DNA of 64,000 nucleotides from Watersipora subatra. Its lineage: Eukaryota; Bryozoa; Gymnolaemata; Cheilostomatida; Watersiporidae. Location of the stretch: assembly GCF_963576615.1 (NCBI RefSeq), contig NC_088708.1:51137196-51201195 (forward strand), given 5' to 3'. The position numbers and the translations under genes are program-made. Each line of letters opens with the position of its first letter. Position 1 is the first letter of the stretch. The notes under the pieces are model-generated. The model saw only the letters and a list, made by a program, of their open reading frames with translations, was not told where the DNA came from and made no database searches. Shown here one piece after another: positions 7,001 through 63,097 of this stretch.

Positions 7001-10000
7001 ATGAACATCCTCATTTCATGAACCTTAACTTCAGATTTTTGTAATGAAATTTAACTCTTTCACTGCCAACCATGTACAATTTCAAGTATCTACCCAGTGC
7101 CAGCCATTTTACCGAAAGCTGCCGACATTGCTTCATGATATGTATACAGAATTTTTTTTCAATCTTTATCTAGAACATGTTTGTTAGGGTACATATTTTA
7201 TTTTGACAACATTTTAACCAACATTGCTATTCAAAAATTCAATGGATCTATACTTTGTGCGATGATAAAGCTATGTGAAGCTACGATCAATGCGAAGCTA
7301 AAACGGTTCTCCACAATGTTCCTTACTTTTACAAAACTATTACTTTCACCACTATCAGAGACAATGCTGCTACTATAATTATCAGTATGACCACGAAAAT
7401 CTGAATTGGCTATAATGTGATCAACATAACTAATTACCTGTTTTCTGACTCGCACGCGGTACACAAAAATGAACTCACACAAAAAAATGTTCGTTTTAGG
7501 TTAGAAAGTTTAAAATTGCTTCGTTGTTTTAGGCTGATTCTTTTAGAGAAGTTTTCGGACAACACTGTCATCTTCGTACAAGTCTTAAAGACCTTGGGTT
7601 ATGTTGTCAACGAATAATAAAAACAGGTTACTACGTATTGCTGGGAAAGTCGCAATAATGCATCTATGGCAGTGGACCCTAGAAAACGCATAAAAGCGTT
7701 TATGGCAGCGGGAGGGATAAATAGCTTTCGAGAATGGATGTGATATCTACGCATTTGTAAAGTAAAGATTAAAAAACCTTTCGAGAGAAAGTAGTGTCAA
7801 TTTCCATGGAAGATTCCGTGTAACTGCCCAAGCACGCAGACACAGTTTTTATGATATGGAAACCGAAACCGCACCTCAAACTCATACCGGTTAACCGGTG
7901 TTTTCGGTTTTGTTCGATGTCAGAAAATTGATCATTCGGCTCGATTAAATATAAACTAACCGCAACCACCGAATCAAACCGAAACATCGTGCAGGTCTAA
8001 TTGAAACAGCTTAGATCAATCACCTGAATGTGAGAGCATTTTAGCCAATGGAAAACCATCACTTTTCAAAACCACAAAACTGCAAGAGCGTATTATTCCA
8101 ACAGAGGTTGAGAGTGCGAATGCTGAACAAGATTATGCTGTTGCAATGAAGACTAGTTTCACCCCAGTACTCTCTATACTGTAAAATGTGTAAGTCTATG
8201 TGTGTATTGGCTGCAGATCTGCTTGAACAGAATGCTCTACTATGAATGTCATCCTGCTAGCTGTCCCTGTGGTGATAAGTGCCAGAATCAAAGGTTTCAA
8301 CGTCGCCGCTACCCTAAGCAGGAGCCATTCAGAACAGGAGATGAGAGAGGCTGGGGGCTGAAGGCCAAAACAGACATTAAAAGGGTTTGTCTACACCTCA
8401 TGACTTGCTTTCAAGTAGATTGGTTTTTGCACAGTGGCACTGATTTGGCTCGGGACGGTTTCACATGCACCAATTGATTTACTAAAATTAGCTAATGAGG
8501 TCCCCAGTGATACTAGCAACAAAAAACCCAAGGTTGTTTATCTGTCTTTTAATATACTTTTTAAGTAGCATCTATTTGTCTTAGCAAACCTCCAAAACTA
8601 TATTAGAAATTCTTGCTCCTAATAACAGTTTATGTTCACAAGTACTTCTTGTTCAGATTCATCGTCCTTGTGCATTCATTGAATATAAATATATGATAAC
8701 GTTGTTGATAACAAATCATTTGATAGTTCCACACGTATAGCGGTGAATATAGTTCGATATTATAGCAAGGTTTATTTTATGTTTATATAAAGTCTATTTT
8801 GTTTCCTGCAGGGTGAGTTTGTCAATGAATACGTTGGAGAACTCATCACAGAGGAGGAGTGCAAACGCAGAATTCAAAAATACCACGAGGAAAATCTTAC
8901 AACATTTTATATGCTGACGTTGGATAGCAACAGGTAATTATTTGTTACCTGGAATGGTCACAGATAATCATTCGGTCTGAGTGACAAACAGAAACCAATA
9001 AATACTCAGCGTTGACAAGCTCTTGCAACCGGTACTTCTACTGAAGTATTTAATGATGCTTGTTACTGAATTTGAGAGCTTTGCAAAGCATGTACTTGGT
9101 TACTCAAACCATTGTCACTCTGTAATTCAACTTTATTCGACTGAGAACCAACACACATTTGACTGAGAACCAACACACATTTGACTGAGAACCAACACAC
9201 ATTTGACTGAGAACCAACACACATTTGACTGAGAACTAACACACATTTGACTGAAAACCAACACGCATTTGACTGAGAACCAACACGCATTTGACTGAGA
9301 ACTAACACGCATTTGACTGAGAACCAACACACATTTGACTGAGAACCAACACACATTTGACTGAGAACCAACACACATTTGACTGAGAACCAACACACAT
9401 TTGACTGAGAACCAACACGCATTTGACTGAGAACTAACACACATTTGACTGAGAACCAACACGCATTTGACTGAGAACCAACACGCATTTGACTGAGAAC
9501 CAACACGCATTTGACTGAGAACCAACACACATTTGACTGAGAACCAACACACATTTGACTGAGAACCAACACACATTTGACTGAGAACTAACACACATTT
9601 GACTGAGAACCAACACGCATTTGACTGGGAACCAACACACATTGGACTGAGAACCAACACGCATTTGACTGAGAACCAACACACATTTGACTGAGAACCA
9701 ACACGCATTTGACTGGGAACCAACACACATTGGACTGAGAACCAACACACATTTGACTGAGAAACAACACGCGTTTGTTTTTAAAGACTAACCAAACACT
9801 GACTAACGTACAAGTTTCAAGGGGTGGGCCATAAAGGCTGGGAAAAGCAACAGTATCAGCATACCATGCAGGAATGATTAGCTGTCACCTTGTGACCCTA
9901 AATGGCTCAGTTGATATACACAACAGGCGTCAGTGCTGCCAGTTATTCATGCCATATTCCACTGTTTTGTAGAGTAATAGATGCCGGACCCAAGGGGAAT

Positions 10001-12064
10001 CTTGCTAGATTTGCCAATCACAGTTGTGATCCGAATATGAAAACACAGAAGTGGTACGTGAATGGAAACTGGAGAGTCGGTTTGTTTGCTCTTAAGGATA
10101 TCCCTTCAGGTTCGTGGGCTCTGGTTGATATAGATGGACTGTATTTTTATACTGCAATATGTTTGCTTGCATAGTCGTGGTAATCAGCATGTGTCACAAA
10201 ATGAAAGCTAAAATACCTTTCTTGTTATATAGGTTTTTTGTGAATGTTTTTCATTCATTATTTTGTTTTAATACTTTGTCCTATCAAGTGGAGTGAAAAC
10301 CTTTGTTAACGATCAATCGCTTAGCTTTATGTGTACACTACTTCTACTTCTACTATCCTGCGCTGCTCGGGTAATAAAAAGGTCTTTGGGCAGAAATTTT
10401 ATTTGTATTTAACATATAACACCATTTACTATTCTAAATTTCAAACTACATATCATGGGAAAAATGTTTTGTGTAGTTGAAATAAATTAAGAGAGAAAAT
10501 AAAAACACCTGTAAAGGTTTTCAAACTTTGTCAAACAACTTTTAAACTTCATATCAAGAGGAAAATGTTTCGTGCAAATAAATTTTACAAAATAAAACGA
10601 TTATAAGGTTTAGATGTAAATGGGAAATAATTAGCAAGTAATAGCTAAATTAAGTTGGTTGTGCTACGATTACAATAAAAGATTATTTGGTAATGACACA
10701 ATTGATACGAACTGGGAAAACACAATCAAATCCTGAATATGTTGAATTAAAAATAACAATTTTTGCATAGAAGTGTGAGTGTATACGAAAGGTTACTGCT
10801 CCACCAGAAGCTATCCATCAAAACTTTGAATACGACGATACTGGTGCCTCTCGATACTGTTACAAATGTAAAAATGAGATAGCGTACTGTCTTTGTCTGA
10901 CTGAACAAAGAGAGAATGTCGAGGCTCTTCCCACGGAGATAATACAATTGTCAGCGTGAAAAGCAACGCGTTTCATAGAGGTAATAGAATTCATAGTTTC
11001 AAATAATACGTCATTTAGCGTGTGCTTATGCTATACGGTATATGATAACAACTTTGATTAATACGCCTTAGATAGCTCAGTGGTAGAGCGCGTGGATGTA
11101 AAACTTGTGGGTGCAATTTCCATGAGTTCAAATCTAGCAGAATGGGAAATTTTAATTCCAAGATTTTAATAGCTACAGCTGGACATACACACAAACTTTG
11201 AGAAACACACATACATATATATATACATTGTATATATATATATATACATTGTATATACAGTGAGACTCGGATAACTCGCCCTCGGATATCTCGAACACAT
11301 GGTTAACTCGAACGGATTTGTTTGGTCCGTTCTCACGCAATGATAAATTGCTTTAGATAACTCGACCTCAACTTCGTTAACTCGAACCTTTTTTTGCCCA
11401 ACGGCTACCGAGACGGTTGTTATCGCTTTAGAATATATTCTAAAGGCTTCTATATTCTATATGGCTTTATTCCAAGCCATAGAGATAAACAACAACTTTT
11501 AGTAGTTCTTAGGCGTCATTATTACCACCATCGGCAAAATATTTTCGTTAACGACTTTTCTAAAGGTTTGCAAAAAATCAAATTTTGCCAAACATCCGCT
11601 TGGGGATAGCCCTCTGCAAGCATGGAGAACCCAGGTAACCTTCGGATAAACTTTAAGAAAAATCGGCAAAACTGTTTTTTGTTAAAACGCTCAAAAGAAA
11701 AATATGTATTTTTTTCTGAGAGTTTCAACCCGCGATCAGGTTTTGCCTATTTTAATCTGAAAACGTCCTGGCAGTCACATCACCTAAAACGAACAAACGA
11801 ATCTCAAGTAATACAAGGAAAATATTTATACTTTCTGATAGAAATTGTTAAAACATTACATGAGAGGTCCCTTAACTTGCAACAAGCAATCAATGCTTTT
11901 GATTTATATATAGTTTGTATATGTACTGATAAATACAATAATACATGCACTTGTGACAGTGTTCTCATAACTTGAACGCTCTGATAACTCGAACACTTTC
12001 TCTCGGTCCCGTGAAGGTCGAGTTAGCCGAGTTTCACTGTATATATATATATATACAGTGAAAA

Positions 12065-12102
<38 letters not shown>

Positions 12103-15100
12103 AGATACTATAGCAATGTAGTCATTTGTGATAATGAAAGCCATTGATCCTTTCTTGCCTCAGATGTGTATAACTACAATAGAAGAGATGGAGCTCATGA
12201 AATTGAAAATGATTTACTGTTTTTTATATCTAACGATGAGATTCCCTTGTTCTACATACACTACAGTCTACACGCACGCCTTTCATTTCACACGTGTATC
12301 TACATCCTTAGTGTCATGTGTGCTTACAAGACTATGCTCCTTGATGTGAGCACATATACTTCCTAGTTTCCATAACATACCAACGCTGATTTTGGTTCAC
12401 AAAGGATAGCAAAAGCCGCAGTGTAGCAAGTTCACTATGCACACTTCACATTGCATTGTGAAGTGTGCATAGTGAAATCTATGTAATCACATCATGTCTA
12501 TAAAGGTTATGCCTATGTATGGTAGCCTTTATTACGTTACACCTATTCCTAGTACTGTAGAATTTTGCCTACTCTACTTGAAGGAGCTGAATTGACCTTC
12601 AACTACAACCTTGTCAGTGTTGGAGAGAAAAAATTAAAATGTCTTTGCAAGGCACCTTCCTGTAGCGGCTTCATTGGTGAGCGTTCTGTCAAGGTTAGTG
12701 TTTTCCAGTCAGTAGTGATCGTAAGGTCAGGGTGATTACAAGGAGTGACAACTCCGCATACCATACACTATGTTAGCAGTATAACTATAAAAAGCTCGAC
12801 TATCAGCACTTGCTTCAGTATACTACTGTTTGAAATGCATCAGTTGTGGCCAACGAAGTTCATCGGTACAAAGTAATCTTGACAGAGACGGGAGCGTGTT
12901 TGTGTGTGTAATGTTGATATCGATTAGTTCAGTGGGTAGAGGTTATGCTGATATGTTACTTAATTGAACAAATGGTTGATCAGACTTGAGCAAACCATCT
13001 CCTTAGCCGAGTTGTATTGTTTGCTATAATATGAGCCATATACACGGTAATAGCTAATGTAACATCCATATAATAATGTCTTTGATAGAGTTGCATTGGA
13101 TATTACAGGCAGAAACTGGTTGATCGGTTACAGAATCAATCACTATGTTTCCATGATGGGCATTGCTTCGGAGTTGCGCTATCTCCGAATCATGGAAACG
13201 GCGTCTTCGCACTGAAATCACTGCACACTGATCAGTGCGAAGCCAGTGCAAATTCGCATCAAGGAAACAGCGATTGCGCAGTGGCTGCGCATAGCTCTCA
13301 TGCCGTGGAGACGGATTCTTCGAGGGCCATAAACTAGCACAAAGGGTATCCCGATAATATTGTTTTCTTCTATTTTTCCGATCTTCTTTCACCTAAATGT
13401 AATTATGGTCTGCACCCACGAGGATGATGAGGTGATTACTTTCCTAGACTTTATTATCGATGCCAACACTTTTCAAAAAAAAGGTGACAAGTCCTAAATT
13501 AACTTTTAAATAATATATTACTTAAAAATACTTGTTAAAAATATATTGCTTTGTAAAATTTGTGTTTAGGTTTGCAACACCTCGTGAATGTGTATTGTAA
13601 ATAAAAGTATAATGACGACAGAAGCATAAAAAGACTGTTTCTGACGTTCGGTATCCGTGATCGATTCTATTTCTCCATCAGGCGATTCGATTTATACAAT
13701 GTCTCTTCTCTGCTAATTTGCTGAAAACCACTCCGCAGCATGGAAACGTACAATCCCCTCGACTTCGGAGGGGGCTGCTTCGCAGTACTGCGCACCATGG
13801 AAACATAGTGATAAATAAATAGTGCCCCATATATATCATTGTTTGCTCTTGTATGGCTTGCTTCTTGTGGTTGTATTGGGATGCTATGTTAGTGTTCACT
13901 TGTGAGCATCTGGTTAATGGCGGATTTGATAGGTGTATTGTGCCATGGGTAGGTAATTCCTGCCGCATTCGGATGCATAAGCGATGAAGGTTTATATGTA
14001 GCTGCATTGGAAAAGGTTTATAAGTAGACTCATTGTATGTCGTAGCTACGAACTGATTCTAACTTAAGGTTGGTTATCTTTATATAAGATCAAGGTATTC
14101 ATCCGGGTTATATCTTTAACAGCCTGTCAATGAGAAAGTAGGAAAGCGGAAAAAAGTAAAGAAAAGGCATCCGAGACTGAAACATGATGACTGGTGCTTC
14201 CGTTGTCTAGATGGTGGAGAGCTGCTCATGTGCAACAGGAACAAGTGTCACAGAGCATACCATCTCGCTTGTCTTGGGCTAGAGAAAGTGCCCTACGGTA
14301 AGTAGCTTTCTTACTGTCTAACAGCTGTCTTAGGTTATTCCGTAGCGATATGGGCGTTTTTAGTAGACGGACTCTCTTTCAAGCGGAGTGACATTAACTG
14401 GTTTAGATACAACAAGCAATTTGCTAACTTTCCTTCAACTTGTCATAAATCGCTAAATAAGTATGCATTGGGAAGCCGAGAAATGTTTCTACTCGTAATT
14501 ATCTATTGCTCGCAATTAACCTGCGATGATATTATAGCCTGTGCCCTGCTTTGTAATTTGTTGGAGCTTTCGTTTTTTTTATTTCATTCTCAATTTAAAG
14601 GCATACTTTTATCTTGTAACTATATTTAACGATGTTGCATAATAGCTGATTGCGTTCATTACTTTGATTGCTACATTTTGCAGCAAAAATTGGCTTTTTG
14701 TGTGCAATAGAACAGTCGATCCATTGTAAGCCGAGTTAAGATAAGTGCAAAGATGCTATCAACTAATACGCTATAAATCTGCAAATTTATACGTTTTATA
14801 ATAAAAATCTATCAAATGCTACAAATATATATTCAGGAACAAGTGACATAAACCAACCATATTTATAATACATGCACAAGCAAAAGTTAACATTTTTCAA
14901 ACAAAAATATTTGCATCGTTTGCTCGGCCAGTTGCATTCTGATTTTTGCTTTCGTTCGAAACGATTTCATCATCTGGCTGTTTAACACCGTCCACAGTGT
15001 CTGACCTCAACTCTTTTTCTGCACTACTGAACTAGTCATTATTAGTGTCCAAATGATTTTTTGAGCAGAGCAAAACTTTTAAGCGTTGCATTTTGCCCAA

Positions 15101-17015
15101 ATAATGATAAACTGTTAGTCCCATGGGCGCCAAGCACAACTTTTAGCCTAAAACTAGTCGTTCATTAACCATTTTCCGGATATCAAGATCACATTACACA
15201 AAGAACTACTAATAGTCTGATATAGTTATTAATTATTTCTATGGTGTTTTCAAAGTTTTAACGAAAAAGCGAAAGAATAAATTGTTACTGTTATAACCGA
15301 GTCATTATTAGTACAATTTTGTGGACACTTTTCTACTGATCACTTGCGATTATGGGTTCGTAAAGATCAAAGAATGTCAAAGTGGTGGTCGAATAGAGGT
15401 GGCGTTCAAATAAAGCTGGGGTTCAAATAGAGGTGGCATTCAAATAAAGGGGGGTTCGAATAGAGGTGGCGTTCAAATAGGGGTTTTATGGTAACTAGAT
15501 GAATGCACAGCATTGTACAGGTAATAAAAGTTTTTGCGCAGAAAATCTATTTTTAACTAACATATACAACATTTACTATTCTAATTTTTAAATGAGTGTT
15601 TGTCTATTTCTGTGTGCTGTGTTTATTCCTGTCTAATTCATACTTTACCAGCCGCAGTGCCTACTACAGAACTATACTGATTGCAATGGTCTTGTTGGCC
15701 ATAGGTCTTGAGTTTTAGCATCTTGGTCTGGTATGCCTTCACACTAGCTGCTGAAATGCCCGGCGTTGTTCGGGTAATAAAAAGTCTGCACAAAAAATTT
15801 ATTTTTATTTAACATCAACCATTCTAACTTTTAAACTTCATGTCATGAGCAAAGTGTTTTGGCCAGTTTAAATAAGATGAAAGAAAAAATAAAACAACTG
15901 TAAAGGTTGCAGTTGTTTAAAACTTTAAAGATGAAATAATTAGCAAGTAACGGCTGGATAGTCTGTTCTGCTACAATGATTACAATGAAAAATTATTTGA
16001 TATCAATACAATTAATACGAACTGAGAAAACAAAATAAAAATAATGAATGTTAGATATAATAATAACAATGACTATATAGAAAGAAGTGTGTATACAAAA
16101 GGTTACTGTAGCAGCAGAACCTGACCATCAAAACTTTGGAATTGACAATACTGGTACAAATGTAAAAATGAGATATCAAACTGTCTAATACACGGTCTGA
16201 TCAAACGGAGAGAGGGCATAGAGGCAATTCCTCAAGATAATACAACTGTCCACGTGAGAAGTATTTAGCTTTTACAGATTTTGAGATTACCATTAGGAAG
16301 AATTGAAAATTGAAAGGCTTTGATGGCGCATTTGAAAATTTACTAATTAAAAAACGTAATGGATTTTGATGTGGTTATTGAAAAACTTCCAAAAGAAAAA
16401 CAAACGCAAAAAGTAATATTAATAATACAGTGTGTATATTTAGATTGTAACTTGCAATCGCGATAAGGATGGATAATTAACAATGATAGGAACGGCTTAA
16501 GCTGTGGTTGAGGGCCTGCGTTTGTAGACTTGCAATTTGAATGTCGCGAGTTCAAATCCAGTGCCATGCAGATTTTTTATTCCTAGATTTTAATCACTAT
16601 ATCTGGACACACGGATGACAGAAAACAAAAAACACAAACTTTGAGAAATATATATATAGATTGCTTAACATCTGACTGTTTTGCAGGTAAATGGGACTGT
16701 CCTTGGCACCACTGCGATGACTGCGGTAAATCAGCCTCCATCCTCTGTAGCGAATGCCCAAATTCCTTCTGCAATGAGCATCATTCTCGGAACATCCAGC
16801 AAATTCAAGGCTTCTGGTTCTGCCGTTCCCACACCGCCAATGACATATCTACAATCCTAGCTAAACGCGAAACCGACATGAAATCTCAAATACATTCGGC
16901 TCCCTCCACGCCGGGCAGTTCAAGTACTGATGCATCAGTTGAAGGGAACACTTTTGTAAATCCTCTAGTGAGCAGCAACAGCCAGCTAAGCAAGGCACCG
17001 ACACTTATTCGATAA
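1080..17015 (+). CDS. NSD: NSD-family histone H3 lysine-36 methyltransferase (3' part of gene, 10 exons)
   Basis: Exons: 1080-1245, 2059-2264, 4731-4843, 5102-5206, 8217-8384, 8812-8933, 9973-10109, 12584-12693, 14123-14297, 16687-17015 (stop TAA). All phases join without a break and give about 543 residues. In order: end of a PHD finger ([14 protein letters not shown]), PWWP domain ([30 protein letters not shown]), AWS cysteines ([27 protein letters not shown]), SET domain ([40 protein letters not shown]), post-SET ([13 protein letters not shown]), then the C-terminal PHD/C5HCH module ([32 protein letters not shown]). This order is diagnostic of NSD1/2/3, which mono- and dimethylate H3K36 in chromatin. 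Cofactor and substrate motifs look intact. The protein ends in a Ser/Thr-rich tail. The 5' exons are outside the window, and NSD1, NSD2 and NSD3 cannot be told apart; invertebrates usually carry one gene. Introns are rich in repeats. Confidence 0.95.
2374..3228. repeat. 57-bp minisatellite, about 15 copies, in NSD intron
   Basis: The unit contains CTCACCTTTCAGATGTCTAG and TGGTATATCCTGTCATTGTA. Copies differ only at a few fixed sites (CACC/CACT, CTGCAG/CTACAG, ATATCC/ATACCC). Because 57 is divisible by three and the unit lacks stops, the array is open in several frames on both strands. Those reading frames are artefacts of the array. Confidence 0.97.
3560..3800 (-). mobile_element. SINE-like fragment, reverse orientation
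   Basis: The left end (TATATAAATCTTGGTGTTTGTC) matches in reverse the TATATATA/CTGGACACAC tail seen after tRNA-like segments elsewhere in the window. GGGTTCGAAATCACAACC resembles a tRNA B box. GTGCACATAGTTATT is shared with 57250-57267. No target duplication was established. Confidence 0.35.
4230..4625. mobile_element. 396-bp MITE with GTCCGAAAAGTA-type termini
   Basis: Starts CCGTACTTTTCGGACTAT and ends in its imperfect inverse, ATAGTCCGAAAAGTATGG, flanked on both sides by TA. The interior repeats TTATATAAGCCGCA several times near both ends and holds a second inverted pair (CTTTCACCGCTAG / CTAGCGGTGAAAG). There is no coding capacity. It is a short nonautonomous DNA element; the TA duplication suggests mobilisation by a Tc1/mariner-type enzyme (inference). 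Confidence 0.8.
5207..5875. other. NSD intron, no feature seen
   Basis: AT-rich intron between the 5' AWS exon and the MITE at 5880. No repeat, exon or RNA gene was recognised. Confidence 0.5.
5880..6763. mobile_element. piggyBac-like MITE, copy 1 (884 bp, TTAA target sites)
   Basis: Termini AGGTTGACTTGCAAC and GTTGCAAGTCAACCT are inverted, each abutting TTAA (5876-5879 and 6764-6767). The inverted repeats extend inward for about 130 bp, through CAAATATGTGGAAATGTGA and ACAAGCTCTTAAAAGCTC. The interior has no long reading frame. Two further copies lie at 21341-22235 and 35203-36085. A TTAA duplication is the hallmark of piggyBac-type insertion. Confidence 0.85.
6854..7999. mobile_element. ~1.15-kb inverted-repeat element with TAGACCTGCACGAT ends
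   Basis: TAGACCTGCACGAT at 6854 is the exact inverse of ATCGTGCAGGTCTA ending at 7999. Subterminal AATTCGGTTATCG and ACCGAATCAAACCG are also inverse-like, and GGTTAACCGG-type motifs recur. Short frames inside do not resemble a transposase, although an acidic serine-rich stretch on the minus strand (7231-7482) could be a remnant. The terminal sequence is hAT-like in flavour, which is only an impression. Confidence 0.6.
9136..9772. repeat. 22-bp minisatellite, about 29 copies, in NSD SET-domain intron
   Basis: The unit reads TTTGACTGAGAACCAACACA plus CA. Main variants are ACACACA/ACACGCA and ACCAA/ACTAA; a few copies carry GGGAACC or ATTGG. It lies inside the intron 8934-9972 that splits the SET domain. 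Reading frames on the minus strand are open only because the unit lacks stops. Confidence 0.97.
10357..11225 (+). mobile_element. Dispersed ~0.87-kb repeat ending in a tRNA-like SINE tail (copy A)
   Basis: Begins near GCGCTGCTCGGGTAATAAAA and is alignable over most of its length with 15755-16650 (ATTAGCAAGTAA, ACGAACTG.GAAAACA, CCATCAAAACTTTG, TACAAATGTAAAAATGAGAT). It finishes with a tRNA-like block: A box TAGCTCAGTGGTAGAGCG at 11073-11090, B box GAGTTCAAATC near 11125, then a GGACATACACACAAACTTTG tail and (TA)n. Confidence 0.7.
11258..12039. mobile_element. 782-bp pogo/Tigger-like MITE with CAGTG ends
   Basis: Left end CAGTGAGACTCGGATAACTC and right end GAGTTAGCCGAGTTTCACTG are inverted and flanked by TA on both sides. 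CAGTG-type termini with TA duplications are typical of pogo/Tigger elements of the Tc1/mariner superfamily. Reading frames inside are short and not recognisable. A (TA)n tract runs from 12040 to about 12098. Confidence 0.75.
12431..12476. repeat. Perfect 20-bp hairpin in NSD intron
   Basis: Arms TTCACTATGCACACTTCACA (12431-12450) and its exact inverse (12457-12476) surround a 6-base loop TTGCAT. There is no (TA)n context and no larger terminal repeat, so it may be a microRNA-sized foldback or a collapsed MITE. Confidence 0.85.
13141..13810. mobile_element. 670-bp foldback MITE with CACTATGTTTCCATG ends
   Basis: CACTATGTTTCCATG at 13141 is inverted as CATGGAAACATAGTG ending at 13810. The motif CATGGAAAC or its inverse recurs several more times inside, together with GCTTCGGAG / CTTCGGAGG. 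It is locally GC-rich compared with the surrounding intron. No coding potential is seen. Confidence 0.75.
15395..15486. repeat. Short ~16-bp tandem repeat (TTCAAATAGAGGTGGCG)
   Basis: About five imperfect copies of TTCAAATA(A/G)AG(G)TGG(C/G) in an NSD intron; probably part of an old mobile element. Confidence 0.7.
15755..16650 (+). mobile_element. Dispersed ~0.9-kb repeat with tRNA-like tail (copy B)
   Basis: Starts GAAATGCCCGGCGTTGTTCG and matches 10357-11225 along most of its length. The tail has a degenerate tRNA-like region with GCGAGTTCAAATCC at 16548-16561, then CTGGACACACGGATGACAG and TTTGAGAAATATATATATAG. It ends 36 bp before the last NSD exon. A truncated relative of the 5' end lies at about 15516-15600. 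Confidence 0.7.
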
Positions 17016-28432: not shown

Positions 28433-29870
<1,438 letters not shown>

Positions 29871-49833: not shown

Positions 49834-52800
49834 ATGGCGGTTTATTTTGATACAAAGGTTGACACTGTTACTACTGGAATACACACAGGTCTCTATTTTC
49901 ATGAAGTTCACCCATTGCTAGTCGTCACATCTTATGATCAGATTCAGGGTGGAACAGTCAGCCTTTACAATAAAGATGTATGTAACATGTGCTTATCATC
50001 ATTTTAATATTTATATACCCGATATGTACCGTAATGCATTTTGTATTGCTTAAGCAATGTCAGTTTTATTGTTTTGCAAGCTTTTTTAATGAGTATCTTA
50101 AATGTTTGACATCAATTATTAGGTTTTGGCAAGTATTAGTTGTCATTCAATTTTAAAATTATAAAACTATAGAAATGCAGAAAATGCTCTGCCAATCATT
50201 GAATTAGTTTTTGTAAACCTATCGTGATACATTTATATATTTGAAGTCAACTTTAAGGAGTGGAGATAGGGATGTCATTAAAAAAGCAACAACTAACAAA
50301 CTTCAAGGTTCTATGCTTCATTGCAGGGTGAAGCACAGAATCATGCTACTATCCAGAGGTCTGTAAACTGTACAGCTGTTTGCTGGCAAGCCCAGAAAAA
50401 AATTCTAGCAGTAGGATGGGAAAGTGGAGAGCTGATGATTTGGAATGAAGGAGAGAGGGACCTCCACGAGGCACCGAAGCTCCACAAGGCTGCCATTTCT
50501 TGTCTTGCTTGGAGTGTTAAAGGATCTCGGCTAGTTTCTACAGATCAGGTTTGTTATACCAACTCTTGTAGCCTGTGGTCACTGCTATTTTTGTTATTGT
50601 CTATGCACTGCATATTCTTAGCCTTTTAGACTGGAGCTGTTATCGTGTGGAAAGCTGATGCTCGTGGGCGGCTGCAAACGAGTCCTCTCAACAACATAAA
50701 TTTACAAGAAAGTGTTAATGAGCTAATATTTAGGCCTTCAGCTTCCCAAGACCCGAGCACGTAAGTTAAATTGTAGTTTTTATATTCAGGTTTTCTGTTG
50801 ACTTGTCAGGATGTAAAAGTCCTCTTACATTATCATTATTTCTTAAGAAACTGACAATTCTGTGTGCTGTCGGTCCACGCGAACAATTATTTAAATTTTA
50901 TGTTGGTATCTATTCTGCATTTTAATTGAACAAAATAATATATTTTGTCACCAAAACTGATATCTGACAATTTACAGTAAATATCAAAGATTTTCCAGCA
51001 TGTTGTATATGTATTTGCCCTTGTATCTTTTTTAATTTTCGCAATGCAGAGACTTGGCAGCACTCGCCAGGGCAGCAGTCAGCGGCGATGAGTCAGCCCT
51101 TGACATGTTCAACTGGAAAAAGTCGATACCTGGTAAACCGGGCAACAGCCCTTTTGGTGCCCCGGTAGAAGCTTTTGGCTTCTATGTTGGAACGGAAGGA
51201 GGTTCGTTATATTTTTATAATAGTGGCTAAGAATTTGCGAGTGATTATTGACAGAGTCTCTATAAAGAATTATATTTATAGCTATTTGATGCTGTCAATA
51301 ATATGAACAAGGTTTGATAGCCTCTTATAAATCATATTTTTAAAATAATATATTGACATCACATGCCTTATTCTTACAATGATCTGCTTTTATGAAAATA
51401 TCAAACATTTTGGAGTGAAAGGTTTTGCTTGCTGCAGCTTTGGGCCACTGGTCAATGAGAAGTTGTGTTACCTCTACATGTGCATGCTGATGTATGGTCT
51501 GCTTTTACAAGTTAAATGCTTTTTAAAATATGAACCATACTGTGGTGAAATTAACATTTTTACTCCTGTGATGAAAGTAATGTTTGTTTACAATATTTAT
51601 GTTAGTTATAATGAACAAGTATATAGTTACTCTGCAGACAGTTTAATTGAATAATTCATATCTTTATTGTAATATGTATGTGAATTAGCTCATCTCAGTA
51701 GCGTATGGTTACATTCAAGAAAATGTTTTTAGGCAATGATGCAGACTAGTGCTATTTAAACCCAATGCAGCACTTGGAATGCTTCAATTAAAATATCTAG
51801 TGTATGTACACGCTAGAAAGCAGTATTTTTGGTTATTTTCTTATTCACCGACAATGAGCTGATTAAAAGTGAAAATATCTGGAAGGAAAAGTATCCAGCA
51901 TTGGTTTCTCCTCTTAAGTTTCTACCTCCTCTTGTCCAATAATGGGAGTTATACTCTCCTTTTAGTTATCTCTCTCCAGCATTAAATGGTGCAGGCTTGA
52001 AGGTTAAACAATTTTAAACGATAATCCAGTTTATATTTATTCTAAACTGGTAGGTTATATGTCAACTTTGACCTTGTTTCTAGGCTCAGTGTACCATTGT
52101 AATGAGACTGGCAAGTCACAGAAGTGCTTCACAACTGACGGCTCCATAAGCAAACTGATGCTTATGGAGAGCAAGAGTATTCTCATTACAATCACTGTCA
52201 GCCTCACTTTGGCTCAGCACAACATCTCTCCCTCGGGTGACCTTAAGGAGCTCTTCAAGGTCAGCAACATTTCTCACGCTTGTCACCAATTGTCTAGATA
52301 ACTATCTGCTCACTTTTTATCTTCTCAAAGTATCAGCTTATGCATCATTTAGGTTATACTTCCATTTACAGATTTATTTTGTCCTGTAAAGGATCCTTTA
52401 TAAATTGAGGCTCTATAAGTTGTTAGCCGAACTTGCACCCTGGTTCTTTCAGTAACTGCTATTACCTGTGTTCTAGTGAGTTCCAAATGCTAGGTATTTG
52501 GTACTATAGCAATGCTAGGTATTTGGTACTATAGCAATGCTAGGTATTTGGTATTATAGCAATGCTAGGTATTTGGTACTATAGCAATGCTAGGTATTTG
52601 GTACTATAGCAATGCTAGGTATTTGGTACTATAGCAATGCTAGGTATTTGGTACTATAGCAATGCTAGGTGTTTGGTACTATAGCAGTGCTAGGTGTTTG
52701 GTACTATAGCAATGCTAGGTGTTTGGTACTATAGCAGTGCTAGGTGTTTGGTACTATAGCAATGCTAGGTATTTGGTACTATAGCAATGCTAGGTATTTG

Positions 52801-55800
52801 ATACTATAGCAATGCTAGGTGTTTGGTATTATAGCAATGCTAGGTATTTGGTACTATAGCAATGCTAGGTATTTGGTACTATAGCAATGCTAGGTATTTG
52901 GTACTATAGCAATGCTAGGTATTTGGTACTATAGCAAAAAAGTCGATGTCTTCATTTACTTTGATAGTTTTCAAAACAGTGTAATTATCGCTTAAAACTT
53001 TACTTTATTTGACTGAATATTGCTCGAGCTCTTATATGTTGGCCAAGGAAGATCATACAGCATCAATCGCTGTAGTCATTAACGAGCCACTTGCGCATGT
53101 GGAGTTATTCATGATCATGTGTGCTCTTGAAGACTGTGAATTCCTGCTTCTCAATTCTGCGACAGATATGGTCTAGCTGTGAGGAATGAGGCTTATTATA
53201 CTAATGGAAACATCTCTTCTGATATCGATATGTCGCTAATGTATTTCTATACTTTAAAATTAATACACATTTTCAAAACTTCAGTTTTGAAAAATGTGTA
53301 TTAATTGTACACATTTATTGTACAGTATGTCTAATTGGTGCTCTACAATAAAATCTCACACTACGGTTTGCCTACCCAGACCAGAAATTTTACATTCTGC
53401 GCAAATTTTTTGTCTTTTTATCATAAGAATTTCACTGACAAGCCTGGCTCTTGCTTTCTTCTAGGTGAAGTTGAGTGGTAAAACAGACAGGCCAAGCATC
53501 TGCTGGTCCAATCCCGGAGTGTTGGCCACCGCTACTGGAGAAGGAGTTCTCAGGCTATGGGACCTTGCAAACAATAATAACTATGTGCTCACCCTTGAGA
53601 ATCAGCCACTTTATGATAAGAATGAAGTTCTCAATTGTATAGCATACTGCAAGGAAAGGGGTGAGTCAGCGGCAGCAATTGTATGACAGTTGACCTAGAT
53701 TGGCAGTCGTTGTCAGGATCTGCCATGTTACCGTCACTAACTTGTTCGATGCTATCGTCTTTTGTAGATGAATGAAGAGGTTGCTTCAGATATCATATAA
53801 TTTTAATTTTTTTAATTTTTATATTGCGCTTATCTGTTTGTTATATAATAGACTCAAAATAGATTTTCTATGTTAACAACCTTGTTTTGAACAGTTACAA
53901 AAGGTGCAAACAAATCTATTCAAATAAGTTGTTAAGTTTTTATATCCTTAAATTAAACAAAACCTTGCAGAGGTTGTGAACTGCATGTATGTAGTTTCCA
54001 GGATTTTATCACAAATTCATTGCATTTTATAAAACCAGCTGCGCATCCTTCCTAAAGGCTGGTTCACCCTATATCACCGTATTTTGGAGTTGTACATCAT
54101 CGGCTATGTGCACTGTGAACCGATAGCATTGACAAAGCAACGCGGATACAATAGTTCGCCGAGCATCAGTGATAGCCTGTACAATGTGCACCATTTTGGC
54201 GATGGTGATTCAATGTTGCAGAAAGTTTAATCTATTTATTTCTGTCTATGATAGTTGCTGCGGACTCGTATTTGATTTGAGCGAAAACAAAAAGGTTCTT
54301 GCGAGAGAAGTTAAAAAGAGAAATGAAAACATAATGTCACGGAGTATTCGCTGATGCAAACGCCGATGGGTTTGTGATAGTCTGAACATTGTTATCATAG
54401 ACGATCACCAAAGTATTGTGGCATCGATGCTTCGATATATGTGATGTGAACCAATCTTTAGTTGCTAATGAAATGGTATTATTGGTTCACCCTTTGGCCA
54501 TGACTGTTCTTAGGAACACTGGCAGCTGGTACTAACCTTGGAAATGTGGCTATGTGGAAATTCTCTCCGAATCCTGAGAGTACAGAAGATGATGAGACAT
54601 GTTGGAAGTTACAGCCACCATCTTCAGTTGATGGCTTAATGGAACACATTAGTGTAAGTCTCTCCCTTCTGTTTCTGTACTTCCAAGGCTTTTGTGTTAC
54701 CTCTATGATATTGCTTTAGTTTTCACCACTAGGCAATTAATGTTTCTGTTTCACTTACCTTTGCTTGACTCTATAGTAGTACTAGCCGAATGCACGGTGT
54801 TGCACGGGTATTAGAAAACAGCTTAGAAACAGTGGCAGGTAGTGTAGTTGCCTGCCACTTGTCATTAGCCTGGCACATCGCCACTGACTAATTTGAGTGC
54901 ACTGCTATCGCTATAATTGCTAAACTTACTAATAAGAGCCGTGAGAGCAAGCTTAGAGCGTTGCGTAATCCAGATTTCTATGTGTATCTTAGCCAACATA
55001 GTGACTCATATCGCTTAACAAATCATTGCACATATGTAGCTCAATCGGTAAGGATATTGCCTGGTTAATGGGTTAATGGTTCCGAGATCAAATCTAGCAC
55101 AAACTGTATTTTTCAGTCCTAGTCTTCAATAGCTATATCTGGACACACCGAATGACAGACTGAGATTCATATATATATATAGATTTATAATTATGTTTAC
55201 ACCGGATGTATTATGTTATCTCTATGAGTTTTATTCATTGTTGTGCTGCTGATCATAATAGTGAAATCATTTTAGAATATCGCCTTTGTTTTTTGTTTGC
55301 TCTATGATGCATTGCATCTTCACCTATAAAATGACACCTCTATTGATTCTTTGTGCATTGTCTGTAACAGCTGTACACTTCATTCTAGCTCTATGACATC
55401 TCTCTCCCTCTCTCTCCCTCCCTTTCTCTCCCTTTCTCTCTCTTTCCCCATCTCTCCCACCCCTCTCTCCTCCTCTCCCACCCCTCTCTCCCCCCTCTCT
55501 CCCCCCTCGCTCTCTCCCTCTCTCCCCCCCTCTCTCTCCTCTCTCCTCCCTCTCTCTGTCTCTTTTTTATATACGTATTTTGAAGCTTTCAAACATTTCA
55601 TTCTATGTTTAGAATATAATATATAATCATGTGTTTCAGTTATTGTCATCTGTTGTAGTTTGGATCTTCAGAGCACCTTGTTGCAGTCTGCAGTTCTAAT
55701 GACGTATTCATCTTGACAGAACAGTCAATGAAAACTCATTTCACAGGAAATGTAAGTACACCATGACTTGCAGTTGTATTGTTATGTTATAGCTTACAGA

Positions 55801-58800
55801 TGAACTACCACCAATTGAGTCTTTAGATAGTTTTCTATAGTGTTTGTATTTATTATATGTTAATTAAATTACCGTATGTTGAATAGCACTCATGTACTAA
55901 ATCTATAAACAGTAATACCCTCAGATATTTTAAAGTGTGATTCTTACATCATTGAAATAGCCTCACCCTCCCACTAGCCATGTATAAACTACTGCAAAAT
56001 TATTGACCCATGATGTTTGATCTTGCTATGGCTGTACTAAAGTCAACTACTGCAAGATTGTTGTTCTTGGTGTGTGCTAACTATTCAATAAAAATGGACC
56101 CAGCTATGTTTTACTTAATATCAGAAATACCAAGTTTTGCAGGGAATGTTCTTTTAGCCTTCCCCACTTAGCCTGTTGTATAACTAATCACACTAAGGCT
56201 ATAGCTATGCTCGCCTCCATTCCAGTTAGGAGCGGTTTTACGTTTTGAAGCTTTGGTAGCTTCAGTAGAAACAAGTTTCTCAGTTGTGATTGGGAAGGTA
56301 GAACTGTATATAAATGTTTCTTTTTTTACATTCATTTTATAAAAAGTATATTTTTGTGATTGTCTTGAATGTTTTGGTTCTGGTATGTTTTATCTATTAT
56401 GTGTATTATATATTTTATTTGCTTTATATACAGGTGGCTGCTGTGCAGTTGGGTCCACAAACAGTTTCCATTGACTGCTTTGCCAATAATGTCCATCATG
56501 AGATGAAGTCAAGCATACAGGTGAGTTTTATTGTTGCACAAATGTTGTTTCTGACAATTTTTTATTGTTGTGCTTTTATCGCCCTATAAAGTTCTCATAC
56601 TGTCTTGCATTGACCACAGGTGAGGGGTGTGGCAGTGGGTACAGAAGCTGCTGCAGTCTGGAACGGAAAACTAGTCGAGGTTTATGAAATAAATCAGGAC
56701 AATCAGACATTACGGGGGATCGGTAAGTGCATACTTACAATCAGACATTACGGGGGATCGGTAAGTGCATATTTACAATCAGACATTACGGAGGATCGGT
56801 AAGTGCATACTTACAATCAGACATTACGGGGGATCGGTAAGTGCATACTTACAATCAGACATTACGGGGGATCGGTAAGTGCATACTTACAATCAGACAT
56901 TACGGGGGATCGGTAAGTGCATACTTACAATCAGACATTACGGGGATCGGTTAATGCATACTTACAATCAGATATTACGGGGGATTAGTAAGTGCATACT
57001 TACAATCAGACATTACGGGGGATTGGTAAGTGCATACTTACAATCAGACATTACGGGGGATCGGTAAGTGCATACTTACAATCAGACATTACAAGGGATT
57101 GGTAAGTGCATACTTACAATCTTTTTTATAATGAGAGCTGTATCCATCATCTGAAGCCACGTTGAAAGGTTAGCAAAAAAGATTACTTTAACTTAAAGTC
57201 GAACTTGTGACTTGTACCAATAAACTGTCTAGCCGCTAAGTGGAATAATCGTGCACATAGTTATTGCACTGGACTGCCAGAATGCTAGTAGCAATAATAA
57301 GTGTAAAAAAATATAAAATGGGTTTTTTTATAGTTTTTTATTTGAATTATTGTAATTTATTTATTTGATTTATTTATTTTGACTTTGTGATTTTATCAGA
57401 TTGATTTTTATTGTTATCATTATTATTGTTATCATCTATCCTTCTCACATGCACTATATATATCATATCTACAGGGTACCTATATATATCATATCTACAG
57501 GGTACCTATATATATCATATCTACAGGGTACCTATATATATCATATCTACAGGGTACCTATATATATCATATCTACAGGGTACCTATATATATCATATCT
57601 ACAGGGTACCTATATATATATCATATCTACAGGGTACCTATATATATCATATCTACAGGGTACCTATATATATCATATCTACAGGGTACCTATATATATA
57701 TCATATCTACAGGGTACCTATATATATCATATCTACAGGGTACCTATATATATATCATATCTACAGGGTACCTATATATATCATATCTACAGGGTACCTA
57801 TATGTATCATATCTACAGGGTACCTATATATATCATATCTACAGGGTACCTATATATATCATATCTACAGGGTACCTATATATATATCATATCTACAGGG
57901 TACCTATATATATATCATATCTACTGGGTACCTATATGTATCATATCTACAGGGTACCTATATATATCATATCTACAGGGTACCTATATATATATCATAT
58001 CTACAGGGTACCTATATATATCATATCTACAGGGTACCTATATATATCATATCTACAGGGTACCTATATATATCATATCTACAGGGTACCTATATATATC
58101 ATATCTACTGGGTACCTATATATATCATATCTACAGGGTACCTATATATATCATATCTACAGGGTACCTATATATATCATATCTACAGGGTACCTATATA
58201 TATCATATCTACAGGGTACCTATATGTATCATATCTACAGGGTACCTATATATATCATATCTACAGGGTACCTATATATATCATATCTACAGGGTACCTA
58301 TATATATCATATCTACAGGGTACCTATATATATATCATATCTACAGGGTACCTATATATATATCATATCTACAGGGTACCTATATATATATCATATCTAC
58401 AGGGTACCTATATATATCATATCTACAGGGTACCTATATGTATCATATCTACAGGGTACCTATATATATCATATCTACAGGGTACCTATATATATCATAT
58501 CTACAGGGTACCTATATATATCATATCTACAGGGTACCTATATGTATCATATCTACAGGGTACCTATATATATCATATCTACAGGGTACCTATATATATC
58601 ATATCTACAGGGTACCTATATATATCATATCTACAGGGTACCTATATATATCATATCTACAGGGTACCTATATATATATCATATCTACAGGGTACCTATA
58701 TATATCATATCTACAGGGTACCTATATGTATCATATCTACAGGGTACCTATATATATCATATCTACAGGGTACCTATATATATATCATATCTACAGGGTA

Positions 58801-61800
58801 CCTATATATATCATATCTACAGGGTACCTATATATATCATATCTACAGGGTACCTATATATATCATATCTACAGGGTACCTATATATATCATATCTACAG
58901 GGTACCTATATATATCATATCTACAGGGTACCTATATATATCATATCTACAGGGTACCTATATATATCATATCTACAGGGTACCTATATATATCATATCT
59001 ACAGGGTACCTATATATATCATATCTACAGGGTACCTATATGTATCATATCTACAGGGTACCTATATATATCATATCTACAGGGTACCTATATATATCAT
59101 ATCTACAGGGTACCTATATATATCATATCTACAGGGTACCTATATGTATCATATCTACAGGGTACCTATATATATCATATCTACAGGGTACCTATATATA
59201 TCATATCTACAGGGTACCTATATATATATCATATCTACAGGGTACCTATATATATCATATTTACAGGGTACCTATATATATCATATCTACAGGGTACCTA
59301 TATATATCATATCTACTGGGTACCTATATATATCATATCTACAGGGTACCTATATATATCATATCTACTGGGTACCTATATATATCATATCTACAGGGTA
59401 CCTATATATATCATATCTACTGGGTACCTATATATATCATATCTACAGGGTACCTATATATATCATATCTACTGGGTACCTATATATATCATATCTACAG
59501 GGTACCTATATATATATATCATATCTACAGGGTACCTATATATATATATCATATCTACAGGGTACCTATATATATATCATATCTACAGGGTACCTATATA
59601 TATATATCATATCTACAGGGTACCTATATATATATCATATCTACAGGGTACCTATATATATCATATCTACTGGGTACCTATATATATCATATCTACAGGG
59701 TACCTATATATATATCATATCTACAGGGTACCTATATATATATCATATCTACAGGGTACCTATATATATATATCATATCTACAGGGTACCTATATATATA
59801 TCATATCTACAGGGTACCTATATATATATATCATATCTACAGGGTACCTATATATATATCATATCTACAGGGTACCTATATATATATATCATATCTACAG
59901 GGTACCTATATATATATCATATCTACAGGGTACCTATATATATCATATCTACTGGGTACCTATATATATCATATTTACAGGGTACCTATATGTATCATAT
60001 CTACAGGGTACCTATATATATCATATCTACAGGGTACCTATATATATCATATCTAAAGGGTACGTAACTTACACGAATACTGGTAACTTGCAATATTTTA
60101 CTTGTTTACTATCTACAGCACTTTATTTGCAATTCATATCTTTTTTTCATTATACAAGCACAAGTAGACATGTCTCCTTCTCTCTACAGGTAACTGGACA
60201 TGTGATACTTCCCAGGTAGCCATACATAATCAGAATGTCTACACAATTGATGGACAAAAAGCCCAAGTACGCACGATGCAGGTGAGTGTAAACCTTATTT
60301 ATTACCTTTGTATACAGAAATATGACAAGTTTAAGGTTTTATAGTTGTTGCTGCCAGTATTGAGGTGTCAGCATAAATATGGCTAACTGTCTGATGCTGT
60401 GCCGGTTCATTTGCTGTTTTGACAAGATCGTAATGCCCAGCCATGTGTCTGGAGACATTCTTATGTCATTCGTGATGTTTTTATTTCAAACTTTCTACTT
60501 CCTACAGTGTCTAGTCTAACTGGGAAGTCTAGTCTAACAGGGAAGTCTAACTGAGCATTTTGGTTGCAGGGTACAGTAAAACAGTTTCTCAACTTTACTG
60601 AAAGTGAAGGAGTGCCCATTACTTTGGATGTGTGTGCTAACTATCTGGTCATTGGTAGCTCTCTCGGTGTCATCAAAGTCTATGACCTTTCTCGCAGGTC
60701 AGTTTCATAGAATAATGGATTAACTCACAGTATTTGAGTGTGTAGAATTCTTTCATTTTAAAAGATATAACTTTACAAACTAAACTTTGTAATAAGCTTT
60801 TAAACCAAATTTGAAACTACATTCTAATATATTTTCAAGAAGATTTTTGGGTTGAGTGGATGTTTAAGCGTGTGGTGTTGATATTAGCTAAAATTAAGTT
60901 CTGCTATTGCAGTTTTCATCTGTAATATACCATATATATATTAAATTTTTAAATATTTTCATGTTTTTGCAAACTTTGCAAGTTCAGTTACATATATAAC
61001 GCTACAAACCCAGGTAAATTCACTGTTACTATTTGAGAAATAACTTTTCATTAATATCTTTTGCATTAAAACCTTTTTCATTGATACTCCTAATGACGCT
61101 AAATAGGAAAGTTAACCATTTTAATTTGCTTGTCACAGAAAGACACTTTTAAAGTTTAGTTGAGGCAGTTGCATCAGACCTGAAGTTGTAACAGTAAGTG
61201 TATACAAGGGCATGACCAGCAAGGCTGGCTCTAAAAGAAAAAATTTGCATAGACTCTAGATAGATACTAGATAGAGACTAGATAGACACTAAATAAACGC
61301 CAGATAGACGCTAGACAAACACTAGATAGACGCTAGACAGCCGCTAGATAGACTAGATAGACACTAGACAAACGCTAGACAGACACTAGCCAGACACTCG
61401 ATAGACTCTAAATAGACACTAGATAAACGCTAGACAGCCGCTAGATAGACACTAGATAGACGCTAGATAGACGCTAGATAGACGCTAGACAAACACTAGA
61501 TAGACACTAAACAGTCATTTGACAGACCCTCGATAGACTCTAAATAGACACTAGATAGATACTAGATAGATACTAGATAGACACTAGATAGACACTAGAT
61601 AGACACTAGATAAACACTAGATAGACGCTAGACAAACACTAGATAGACACTAGACAGCCGCTAGATAGACTAGACAGACACTAGATAGACGCTAGATGAA
61701 CACTAGATAGACGCTAGACAGACATTGGACAGACACTCGATAGACTCTAAATAGACACTAGATAGACTTTAAATAGACACTAGACAGACTCTAAATAGAC

Positions 61801-63097
61801 ACTAGATAAGACACTAGATAAACACTAGATAAGACACTAGACAGACGCTAGATAGACACTAGATAGACAACTGATATGCCCTTTATAAAACTAGTTGATG
61901 TCTATTGTGAGCTTGCAGTCAACATGAAGCTACACCAGCTCTATCAAAGTATGCATTCTGTACCAGAACTTTGCTTAAATAAATAGTAAATGTGCCTAGT
62001 AAAGTGTACATAATGATCCTGATAGTATACAATATACTGGTTTCTACATGTTTCTTTGTCAGAGATGCAAAAGCCCATAACATACCTAAGAACGTCGGGG
62101 AAATAATTCCCAACTTTGGAGGTCTTGTCTCCGTCAAATGTAACTGCAATGGTACCAAAGTCAGCCTTATTATAACCCAGGTGAGAAACAACTCATAATA
62201 TGTGTCTTGTGTTGGAAAGTTCTTTTCTATCTAGTTAGTTGTTATGCTGGTATTGTGACTATGATTGCTATCTGAATGTAGTTTGTGGGGAAAATGTATG
62301 AGTTTTGCTTAACTATATTTTACATTTTTTTATGTAGATTTGTAGTTAATTTTATTTGCCACAACTCAGAGTTTTTAATGTAAACCTCTGTTTTCTTGTT
62401 GGTTACACCTGATAGAACTGTTTGGTTTACAACTGCTAGAGTTATTGAGCACCTTCCATGATTCTGCTAGGAGTAGAGCATCATAAAATAATTAGACACG
62501 GATTGCTTTATAACAATAGAATATCTCATGTTTATACTTTCGATCGTCTAAGTTTCTATGGGCTTTAGCATTCGTCAACCAGTTTTAGACTGCTGCACTG
62601 CAAAGCTTTCAGAAGTACACTCTGTTTGAGACATCTGATATATTTTGCCATTTTTGAACATCGCTTGCCAGTGTGGTCATCAAATTTCTCTTCTGTATTT
62701 GCATGCTGTGGGAACTGTTTGTTTACTTATTAATAAATGGCTCTTTTGTCGGAGAAGTTTTTAATATCTACAGTCTTCACAATCGTTTTTTTCAACAGAA
62801 AATATTTACTGAAAGTGTGTTGTCTGAATTCATTCTCTGTGGCTAAAGCAACGTAATAACTGAACAGCTCACTCTGTCAAATTCTACTTGTCTTTTCTTT
62901 CAATTATAAGCTTGAAGAATCAAGTGGTTTTATATCTTATTGTGTGTCTAGTCTGATGGTAAGATGGACAACAAGCTCTACATTTGGGACACAGAGCTTG
63001 ACACTGTACAGTTTTTTGACTTTGAGACGGGTCGGGGAGAACAGGATGATGACCTTGGATCATTTGAAGAAGAAGAGGATATATCAGATATAGACAG
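49834..63097 (+). CDS. IFT140: Intraflagellar transport protein IFT140, N-terminal WD40 half (14 exons, continues)
   Basis: Exons: 49834-49977 (ATG), 50327-50548, 50630-50760, 51050-51201, 52084-52259, 53465-53660, 54514-54653, 55659-55751, 56434-56520, 56620-56722, 60190-60281, 60570-60697, 62063-62180, 62952-63097. All phases join; 642 residues plus two bases, out of roughly 1460 in animal IFT140. Recognisable family blocks are [93 protein letters not shown] and [23 protein letters not shown]140 is a core subunit of IFT-A, which carries out retrograde transport and ciliary entry of membrane proteins; the N-terminal half folds as two beta-propellers and the C-terminal TPR half lies beyond the window. 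The start follows MAVYFDTK, close to the human N-terminus. Introns 5, 10, 12 and 14 contain tandem arrays, and the array in intron 10 copies the splice donor of exon 10. Confidence 0.96.
52486..52936. repeat. 25-bp minisatellite, 18 copies, in IFT140 intron 5
   Basis: The unit AATGCTAGGTATTTGGTACT plus ATAGC repeats 18 times. Variants are ATTTGG/GTTTGG, TACT/TATT and CAATG/CAGTG; the GTTTGG forms cluster in the centre. Confidence 0.97.
53260..53304. repeat. 21-bp near-perfect hairpin in IFT140 intron 5
   Basis: TTAATACACATTTTC...AAAACT at 53260-53280 pairs with AGTTTTG...GTGTATTAA at 53283-53304, with a 2-base loop and one extra A. It is AT-rich and may be a tiny MITE remnant. Confidence 0.8.
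54781..55192 (+). mobile_element. Short dispersed repeat with tRNA-like 3' half
   Basis: Opens CTAGCCGAATGCACGGTGTT GCACGGG, the 5' motif shared with 15755 and (minus strand) 22341. It ends in a tRNA-like block (GTAGCTCAATCGGTAAGG; GAGATCAAATC), then CTATATCTGGACACACCGAA and TATATATATATAG. It lies in IFT140 intron 7. Confidence 0.65.
55399..55565. repeat. Polypyrimidine (CTCTCC)n tract
   Basis: About 165 bases of almost pure C and T on the plus strand (TCTCTCCCTC, CCCACCCCTC), in IFT140 intron 7 ending about 95 bp before exon 8. It could form triplex DNA and could bind pyrimidine-tract splicing factors. The minus-strand GERE-rich frame is an artefact. Confidence 0.95.
56700..57118 (+). repeat. 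38-bp tandem array duplicating the exon 10 end and 5' splice site
   Basis: Unit: CAATCAGACATTACGGGGGATCG (the last 23 bases of IFT140 exon 10) followed by GTAAGTGCATACTTA. Eleven copies start at the exon border, and all but one keep GTAAGT (the seventh has GTTAAT). Only the first donor (after 56722) preserves the frame: the second and third shift it, and reading on meets TAA at 56800-56802. Confidence 0.96.
57125..57280 (+). mobile_element. SINE-like remnant between the two intron-10 arrays
   Basis: CCATCATCTGAAGCC, AAAGTCGAACTTGTGAC and GTGCACATAGTTATTGCACT match, in order, motifs in the elements at 34860-35060 (minus) and 3655-3790. Confidence 0.4.
57454..60063 (+). repeat. 2.6-kb array of a 26-bp unit in IFT140 intron 10 (~98 copies)
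   Basis: Unit GGGTACCTATATATATCATA plus TCTACA, with (TA)n length variants of 26, 28 and 30 bp; the longer ones concentrate at 59500-59930. Rare changes are TATGTATC, CTACTGGG and TTTACAG. Each unit holds a KpnI-type GGTACC palindrome and a TCTACAG/G motif like the true exon 11 acceptor. All three plus-strand frames stay open for over 800 codons, purely because the unit lacks stops. Confidence 0.98.
61251..61876. repeat. Degenerate 11-bp tandem repeat (CTAGATAGACA)
   Basis: More than fifty imperfect copies of (A/G)CTAGATAGAC with ACAAAC, ACAGCC and TCTAAATAGAC variants, in IFT140 intron 12. Confidence 0.93.

Follow-up and report, generated by a model that had tools for sequence, protein, structure and literature searches.

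The window analysed here, a 64,000-nucleotide stretch of Watersipora subatra contig NC_088708.1, raises the question of how one exon of a conserved gene can end in a run of ten splice donors, which of these donors is used, and whether the run has a function. The gene is IFT140, which starts in the window at position 49834 on the plus strand. A phmmer search with one stop-masked 15-kb frame gave no match, and the exons were then joined by hand. The resulting frame covers exons 1 to 14, the N-terminal region of a gene that extends past exon 14, and it encodes 642 aa without a stop when the first donor of exon 10 (donor 1) is used. This product matched the solved IFT140 structure 8fgw_E, which we take to be the human protein, over residues 1-636 (E 3e-149). 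The spliced frame and the 8fgw_E match place exon 9 (56434-56520), exon 10 (56620-56722; 103 nt, ending in LRGI and the first base of a Gly codon) and exon 11 (60190-60281), all on the plus strand. Exon 10 is thereby flanked by a short intron 9 of 99 nt upstream (56521-56619) and by an intron 10 of 3467 nt downstream.

The boundary between exon 10 and intron 10 lies inside a minisatellite (56699-57121, plus strand). TRF gave this array a period of 38, 11.2 copies and 95% matches over 423 bp, so that the units are closely alike and stand head to tail, and splitting on AATCAGA yielded eleven units with spacings of 38 bp (nine) and 37 bp (one). Each unit combines the last 24 bases of exon 10 with the first 14 bases of the intron, which makes the array an internal tandem repeat that spans an exon-intron boundary; its phase is ambiguous owing to the shared ACAATC, present at both array edges (56699 and 57116). 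The preliminary description had held that the exon end and the intron start were multiplied together with the donor, and both TRF and the unit split confirmed this, the shared exon sequence being 24 bases and not the 23 given there. GTAAGT is kept in ten of the eleven units, as had also been stated, but the exon context before it is not identical throughout: it reads TCG in seven cases, TTG in two and TTA in one. These ten are donor 1 (56723-56728), the sole donor that keeps the frame, and nine further ones starting at 56761, 56799, 56837, 56875, 56913, 56988, 57026, 57064 and 57102 (56761-57107 in all, plus strand). The seventh unit (56929-56965), one base short at 37 bp, has lost its donor and reads GGTTAAT. 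Elsewhere in the 784-Mb assembly the unit is absent at up to three mismatches, all nine matches lying in the IFT140 array.

The extra donors have clear consequences for the frame. When the fourteen exons were joined through each donor, the open 642-aa frame was obtained from donor 1 only and from none of the nine others. Donors 2 and 3 add 38 nt and 76 nt, respectively, and both shift the frame. Reading through donor 1 meets an in-frame TAA at 56800-56802 (plus strand, by the spliced frame), inside donor 3, and all products spliced from donor 4 or any later donor contain this stop. On these points the joined frames agreed in full with what had been proposed from the first reading of the sequence.

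IFT140 is not the only gene with such an exon end. A genome-wide scan sought three donor words with gaps of 16-46 bases (7-mers) or 14-44 bases (9-mers), and the arrays that we read come from the first 100 places per pattern, on C1 to C3. The 5' flanks of 36 distinct arrays were read, namely 8 of GGTAAGT, 12 of AAGGTAAGT, 5 of GGTGAGT and 11 of AAGGTGAGT, a twelfth of AAGGTGAGT being one of the five counted for GGTGAGT. Seven of the 36 begin at an open frame that is closed by the first donor of the array, and five of these seven are backed by homology; at the other 29, read without annotation, no recognisable exon was seen, and non-coding exons would escape such a reading. The five are a DNMT1 gene (L082; E 3.6e-15), with a first spacing of 25 bp and 22 exon bases in the unit, a dynein heavy chain gene (L090; DHC_N2, E 3.9e-8) with 29 bp and 13 bases, a RhoGAP gene (L053; E 1.3e-11) with 26 bp and 2 bases, a nuclear receptor gene (L048) with 23 bp and 14 bases, and an NPC1 gene (L078; a weak E of 0.018, all four matches being NPC1) with 46 bp and 6 bases. 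The remaining two, L041 (38 bp, 8 bases) and L042 (26 bp, 10 bases), show an open frame only. With 24 exon bases in its unit, against 2 in the RhoGAP gene, IFT140 heads this series, and the phenomenon forms a gradient, with units that repeat the end of the exon at one extreme and units beginning at the donor at the other. Considering that the spacings differ and the units look unrelated, the births of these arrays were presumably independent.

Splicing through the first donor could be followed further in two of these genes. In the nuclear receptor gene the next exon lies in L075, behind the acceptor ctctctacag/GTTACAGAT, and joining the exons via donor 1 improved the match from E 0.019 to 2.1e-14 with an unbroken alignment; in Pfam the joined peptide reached 22.5 bits against a cut-off of 23.5. 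In the RhoGAP gene, a phase-0 acceptor gctgcag/GTTGTC opens the next exon, and this exon, read together with an SH3 in L076, points to an srGAP; the joining left the Pfam score unraised, the junction being outside the matched part. Pfam returned no family for the NPC1, L041, L042 and DNMT1 peptides, and no solved structure matched the dynein peptide. For comparison, flanks were read at nine of the ten listed arrays of a control word, as twelve loci (L055-L066). An open frame of at least 40 aa enters the array at five of the twelve (L058, L061, L063, L064 and L065), so an open frame alone, as at L041 and L042, is weak evidence for an exon. Only L061 among the control loci looked coding by eye, with no Pfam family; its array of 44 bp x 5 (452-686) is entered by a 78-aa open frame.

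Because TAA lies within GGTAAGT, a run of such donors should meet an in-frame stop after roughly three units or fewer, provided that its period is not divisible by three. Each of the eight exon-end arrays, IFT140 included, has an in-frame stop at most 80 nt past donor 1: at +77 in IFT140, +12 in the DNMT1, +30 in the dynein, +27 in the RhoGAP, +15 in the nuclear receptor and +1 in the NPC1 gene, and at +5 in L042 and +65 in L041.

How often such arrays arise was judged from word counts. Triples of each word and of its reversal numbered 10,680 and 1,960 for GGTAAGT, 4,857 and 3,191 for GGTGAGT, 1,751 and 2,474 for GGAAAGT, 784 and 23 for AAGGTAAGT, 363 and 43 for AAGGTGAGT, 807 and 88 for AAGGAAAGT, and 463 and 73 for AAGGTAACT. 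Such raw counts are misleading, because single giant arrays dominate them (for AAGGAAAGT, 807 triples stand against two arrays among the matches listed, which span 365 Mb), and arrays were therefore counted per Mb among the matches listed. On this measure we found 8 arrays in 4.71 Mb for GGTAAGT, 5 in 2.19 Mb for GGTGAGT, 9 in 39 Mb for GGAAAGT and 10 in 31.5 Mb for TGAATGG. The background outside arrays, taken from 132.6 kb of the window and of random DNA, holds 19 GGTAAGT, 16 GGTGAGT, 15 GGAAAGT, 10 GGTAACT and 18 TGAATGG, the 9-mers being too rare there to compare (2, 0, 3 and 2). GGT-words are over-represented in arrays, and plain chance capture does not explain this excess of GGTAAGT-like words over background. 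The density tests are post hoc and their intervals end at an array, so that all ratios are rough. From the GGTAAGT density among the matches listed, about 1,300 arrays of this word are expected genome-wide (Poisson 575-2,600). Together with the exon-end share of 7/36 (CI 10-35%), this suggests on the order of a few hundred exons with such arrays, a crude figure as its two components come from different lists. Outside arrays, one or two of the nine GGTAAGT in the window look like true donors, as judged by reading. Arrays thus seem, on small numbers, to meet true donors about as often as the word itself does, with neither strong purging nor preference, which fits chance capture.

An excess of this kind could also mean that arrays arise preferentially at splice donors, either by mutation linked to splicing or transcription or by selection for U1-binding decoys, and we regard this as unlikely. 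On the one hand, AAGGTAAGT (12 arrays in 56.4 Mb) and AAGGTGAGT (12 in 200 Mb) exceed AAGGAAAGT (2 in 365 Mb) among the matches listed, the 8-base forms being about equally dense outside arrays (6, 4 and 7), and AAGGTAAGT arrays are about 3 times denser than those of AAGGTAACT or AAGGTGAGT. On the other hand, AAGGTAACT, which lacks the +5 G and is a poor donor word, forms arrays as commonly as AAGGTGAGT (13 in 191 Mb) and about 12 times more densely than AAGGAAAGT, indicating that the excess does not track how strong a donor the word is; also, a recognisable coding exon adjoins only 7 of the 36 arrays. A donor-specific excess was dropped once AAGGTAACT had proved as common as AAGGTGAGT, and the GGT-word excess, for which no link to splicing is demonstrated, may reflect a preference for certain sequences when arrays are born. 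Two other places seen in the scan carry donor-like words of a different arrangement. L021, L038 and L039 (C1:3480598 to about 3483850) hold 118 GGTAAGT in 28-bp units of the form GTAAGT...GTACAG, which start donor-like and end acceptor-like and so give AG/GT at their junctions, and L012 (C1:1754476-1754718) has a 34-bp unit with CACCTCTACAG/GTAAGT, a junction like a tandem ratchet point.

The choice among the ten donors of exon 10 would depend on strength, position and RNA structure. Donors were scored with a small matrix built from IFT140's own donors, exon 10 being left out for donor 1. Donor 1 scored 5.27, the lowest of the gene's fourteen, the others ranging from 5.49 to 12.29 with each left out in turn. 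Eight of the other array donors also score 5.27 and one scores 1.52, the lost seventh donor giving 1.26, and by this matrix no array donor outscores donor 1. With strengths so nearly equal, position must decide. In the part of PMC9225289 that we draw on, minigenes in which two identical CAG/guaagu donors were separated by 52 nt gave only the upstream product when spliced by exon definition (365-nt flanking introns); strength-matched human donor pairs between long introns favour the upstream donor, and this preference is stronger in the class SL, taken to mean that the upstream intron is short and the downstream one long. The same part reports that about 60% of human events prefer the downstream donor before strength matching, that, with weakened donors, skipping fell preferentially on the larger minigene exons, and, citing in-vitro work, that the intron-proximal (last) donor is favoured under intron definition. 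The rule is a human one, and the CAG donors of those minigenes are stronger than the TCG site of IFT140 exon 10. Considering the short upstream and the long downstream intron, the minigene results lead us to expect that donor 1 dominates, and by this position rule it very probably does the work in exon 10.

The preliminary description had offered two readings of this donor run, that position rules favour the first donor or that a share of the transcripts is lost, and the intron lengths of 99 and 3467 nt, with PMC9225289, make the former the better supported. In the latter, the later donors would be used in part, their products would be frameshifted and decay, and the length of the array would set the output of IFT140. 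There are indeed nine extra GTAAGT, eight of which score as donor 1, and all alternative products are frameshifted or bear a stop; elsewhere, the length of an intronic VNTR has been tied to splicing, as in human TERT VNTR6-1 with its 38-bp unit (from the part of PMC11830802 consulted). However, with introns arranged in this way the exon-proximal donor should prevail (PMC9225289, in part), no array donor beats donor 1, and exons in a number of other conserved genes also end in arrays, of unrelated sequence, a pattern that suggests accident and not design. Accordingly, the claim of a length-dependent expression control found no support, and we consider it improbable. Its extension to the whole genome, with donors as hot spots of minisatellite birth and with the length of donor arrays in a few hundred genes tuning productive splicing through frameshift and decay, as a fast-mutating expression control, appears more improbable again.

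RNA structure was considered as a further means of control. A hairpin GTAAGT-GCAT-ACTTAC (56723-56738, plus strand; -4.8 kcal/mol when isolated) is predicted, with a perfect 6-bp stem in nine of the eleven units, and it might mask each donor, so that the array would be a set of masked donors. The predicted mean unpaired probability is 0.13-0.24 at the array donors (below 0.24 in 10/10; 0.205 at donor 1) against 0.15-0.61 at the 13 other IFT140 donors (below 0.24 in 3/13), and a comparable stem occurs in the RhoGAP array. In these predictions the array donors are on the closed side and within the range of the gene's donors, and donor 1 is not singled out by structure. Against masking, stems of 5-6 out of 6 pairs at most donors were found in only three of the 21 arrays tested, the 16 arrays read later being left out of that count, and the hairpin is not in the predicted 75-nt fold around donor 1. 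Control by hairpins would accordingly be very unlikely. Least likely of all is an assembly artefact with inflated or collapsed copy number, for which it counts that there is one assembly only, but the units carry dispersed differences (the lost donor, the 37-bp unit), and an array of 423 bp would be a short span for long reads, if such were used.

We therefore prefer, with a probability of roughly three in four, the reading that the array is a minisatellite born at the boundary, its donors multiplied by accident and tolerated since the exon-proximal donor wins, and that it is one of a recurrent class. It would have begun as a tandem duplication over the exon-intron boundary, probably between ACAATC direct repeats: the unit takes in the 24 bases of the exon end and ACAATC stands at both edges, so microhomology could have allowed the first duplication. 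Expansion to eleven units would have come afterwards and multiplied the 5' splice site of exon 10 by chance. If the splice sites of exon 10 are paired with each other across it, the donor nearest its 3' splice site would win, and the rest would remain intronic. Rare use of donor 2 or 3 would shift the frame and use of later donors would bring in the stop, and such transcripts would be targets of decay. A function of the donor array is unproven, and the array is probably a by-product that is tolerated in a genome rich in minisatellites.

Intron 10 contains a second array of 26 bp x 98 (57454-60063, plus strand; TRF) with acceptor-like sites of the form ATCTACAG/GG. It holds 90 AGs, 87 of them in this context. 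The most frequent of its sites scores 5.74, which is inside the range of IFT140 acceptors (1.65-9.19) and ranks at the 96th percentile among AGs in the window. In total, about ninety acceptor-like sites share the intron with the ten donors. Further arrays lie in intron 12 (11 bp x 57, ATAGACACTAG; 61249-61869) and intron 5 (25 bp x 18; 52486-52937). Elsewhere in the window, by eye, an actin-like gene lies on the minus strand (28436-29757) and a PHD/PWWP/SET gene, NSD-family-like, on the plus strand (1000-17000), with seemingly intronic arrays at 2374-3231 and 9135-9777. The former, of 57 bp, was considered as a second boundary array and rejected by eye, from a PWWP pattern on the translations.

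Intron gain by AGGT duplication resembles the IFT140 case in that a tandem duplication crosses an exon-intron boundary. It differs in that it joins an AG acceptor and a GT donor at one junction, whereas the IFT140 unit reads ATCG/GTAAGT, a donor without an adjoining acceptor, and needs no new intron. The donors of TASS typically lie a few bases apart, while the ten of IFT140 are mostly 38 bp apart and were made by array expansion. The likeness is that several tandem donors stand at one exon end, and most of the extra ones in TASS/GYNNGY are held to be noise in the parts of PMC8055015 and PMC4267661 consulted. TERT VNTR6-1, which is linked to splicing and shares the unit length of 38 bp, sits within an intron according to the part of PMC11830802 at hand, which makes no mention of multiplied donors, unlike the boundary-crossing array of IFT140. 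The closest likeness in crossing a boundary is given by the internal tandem repeats of human segmental-duplication genes, which, in the part of PMC2812944 used here, have units of about 30 bp, lie at exon-intron boundaries and can alter splicing. Those repeats vary among human paralogs of recent origin and can give rise to new introns, whereas arrays of the IFT140 type lie in conserved genes and keep the boundary; their unit repeats an intact donor. Among the titles and abstracts listed in the literature searches, none dealt with splice donors arrayed in tandem as a class of their own. Within that range, boundary minisatellites are known from duplicated human genes, and what is new is that an intact donor has been multiplied in tandem, and this in several conserved genes within a single genome.

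For gene-prediction tools, these arrays are a caution that long tandem runs can hold strong donor scores. For the biology of splicing, one genome presents several runs of the classical duplicated-donor experiment, with 4 to about 24 similar donors per exon end, and most of the exons that carry them are conserved. Accordingly, such arrays bear on the choice of donors by position alone and on the number of surplus donors that a gene can tolerate.
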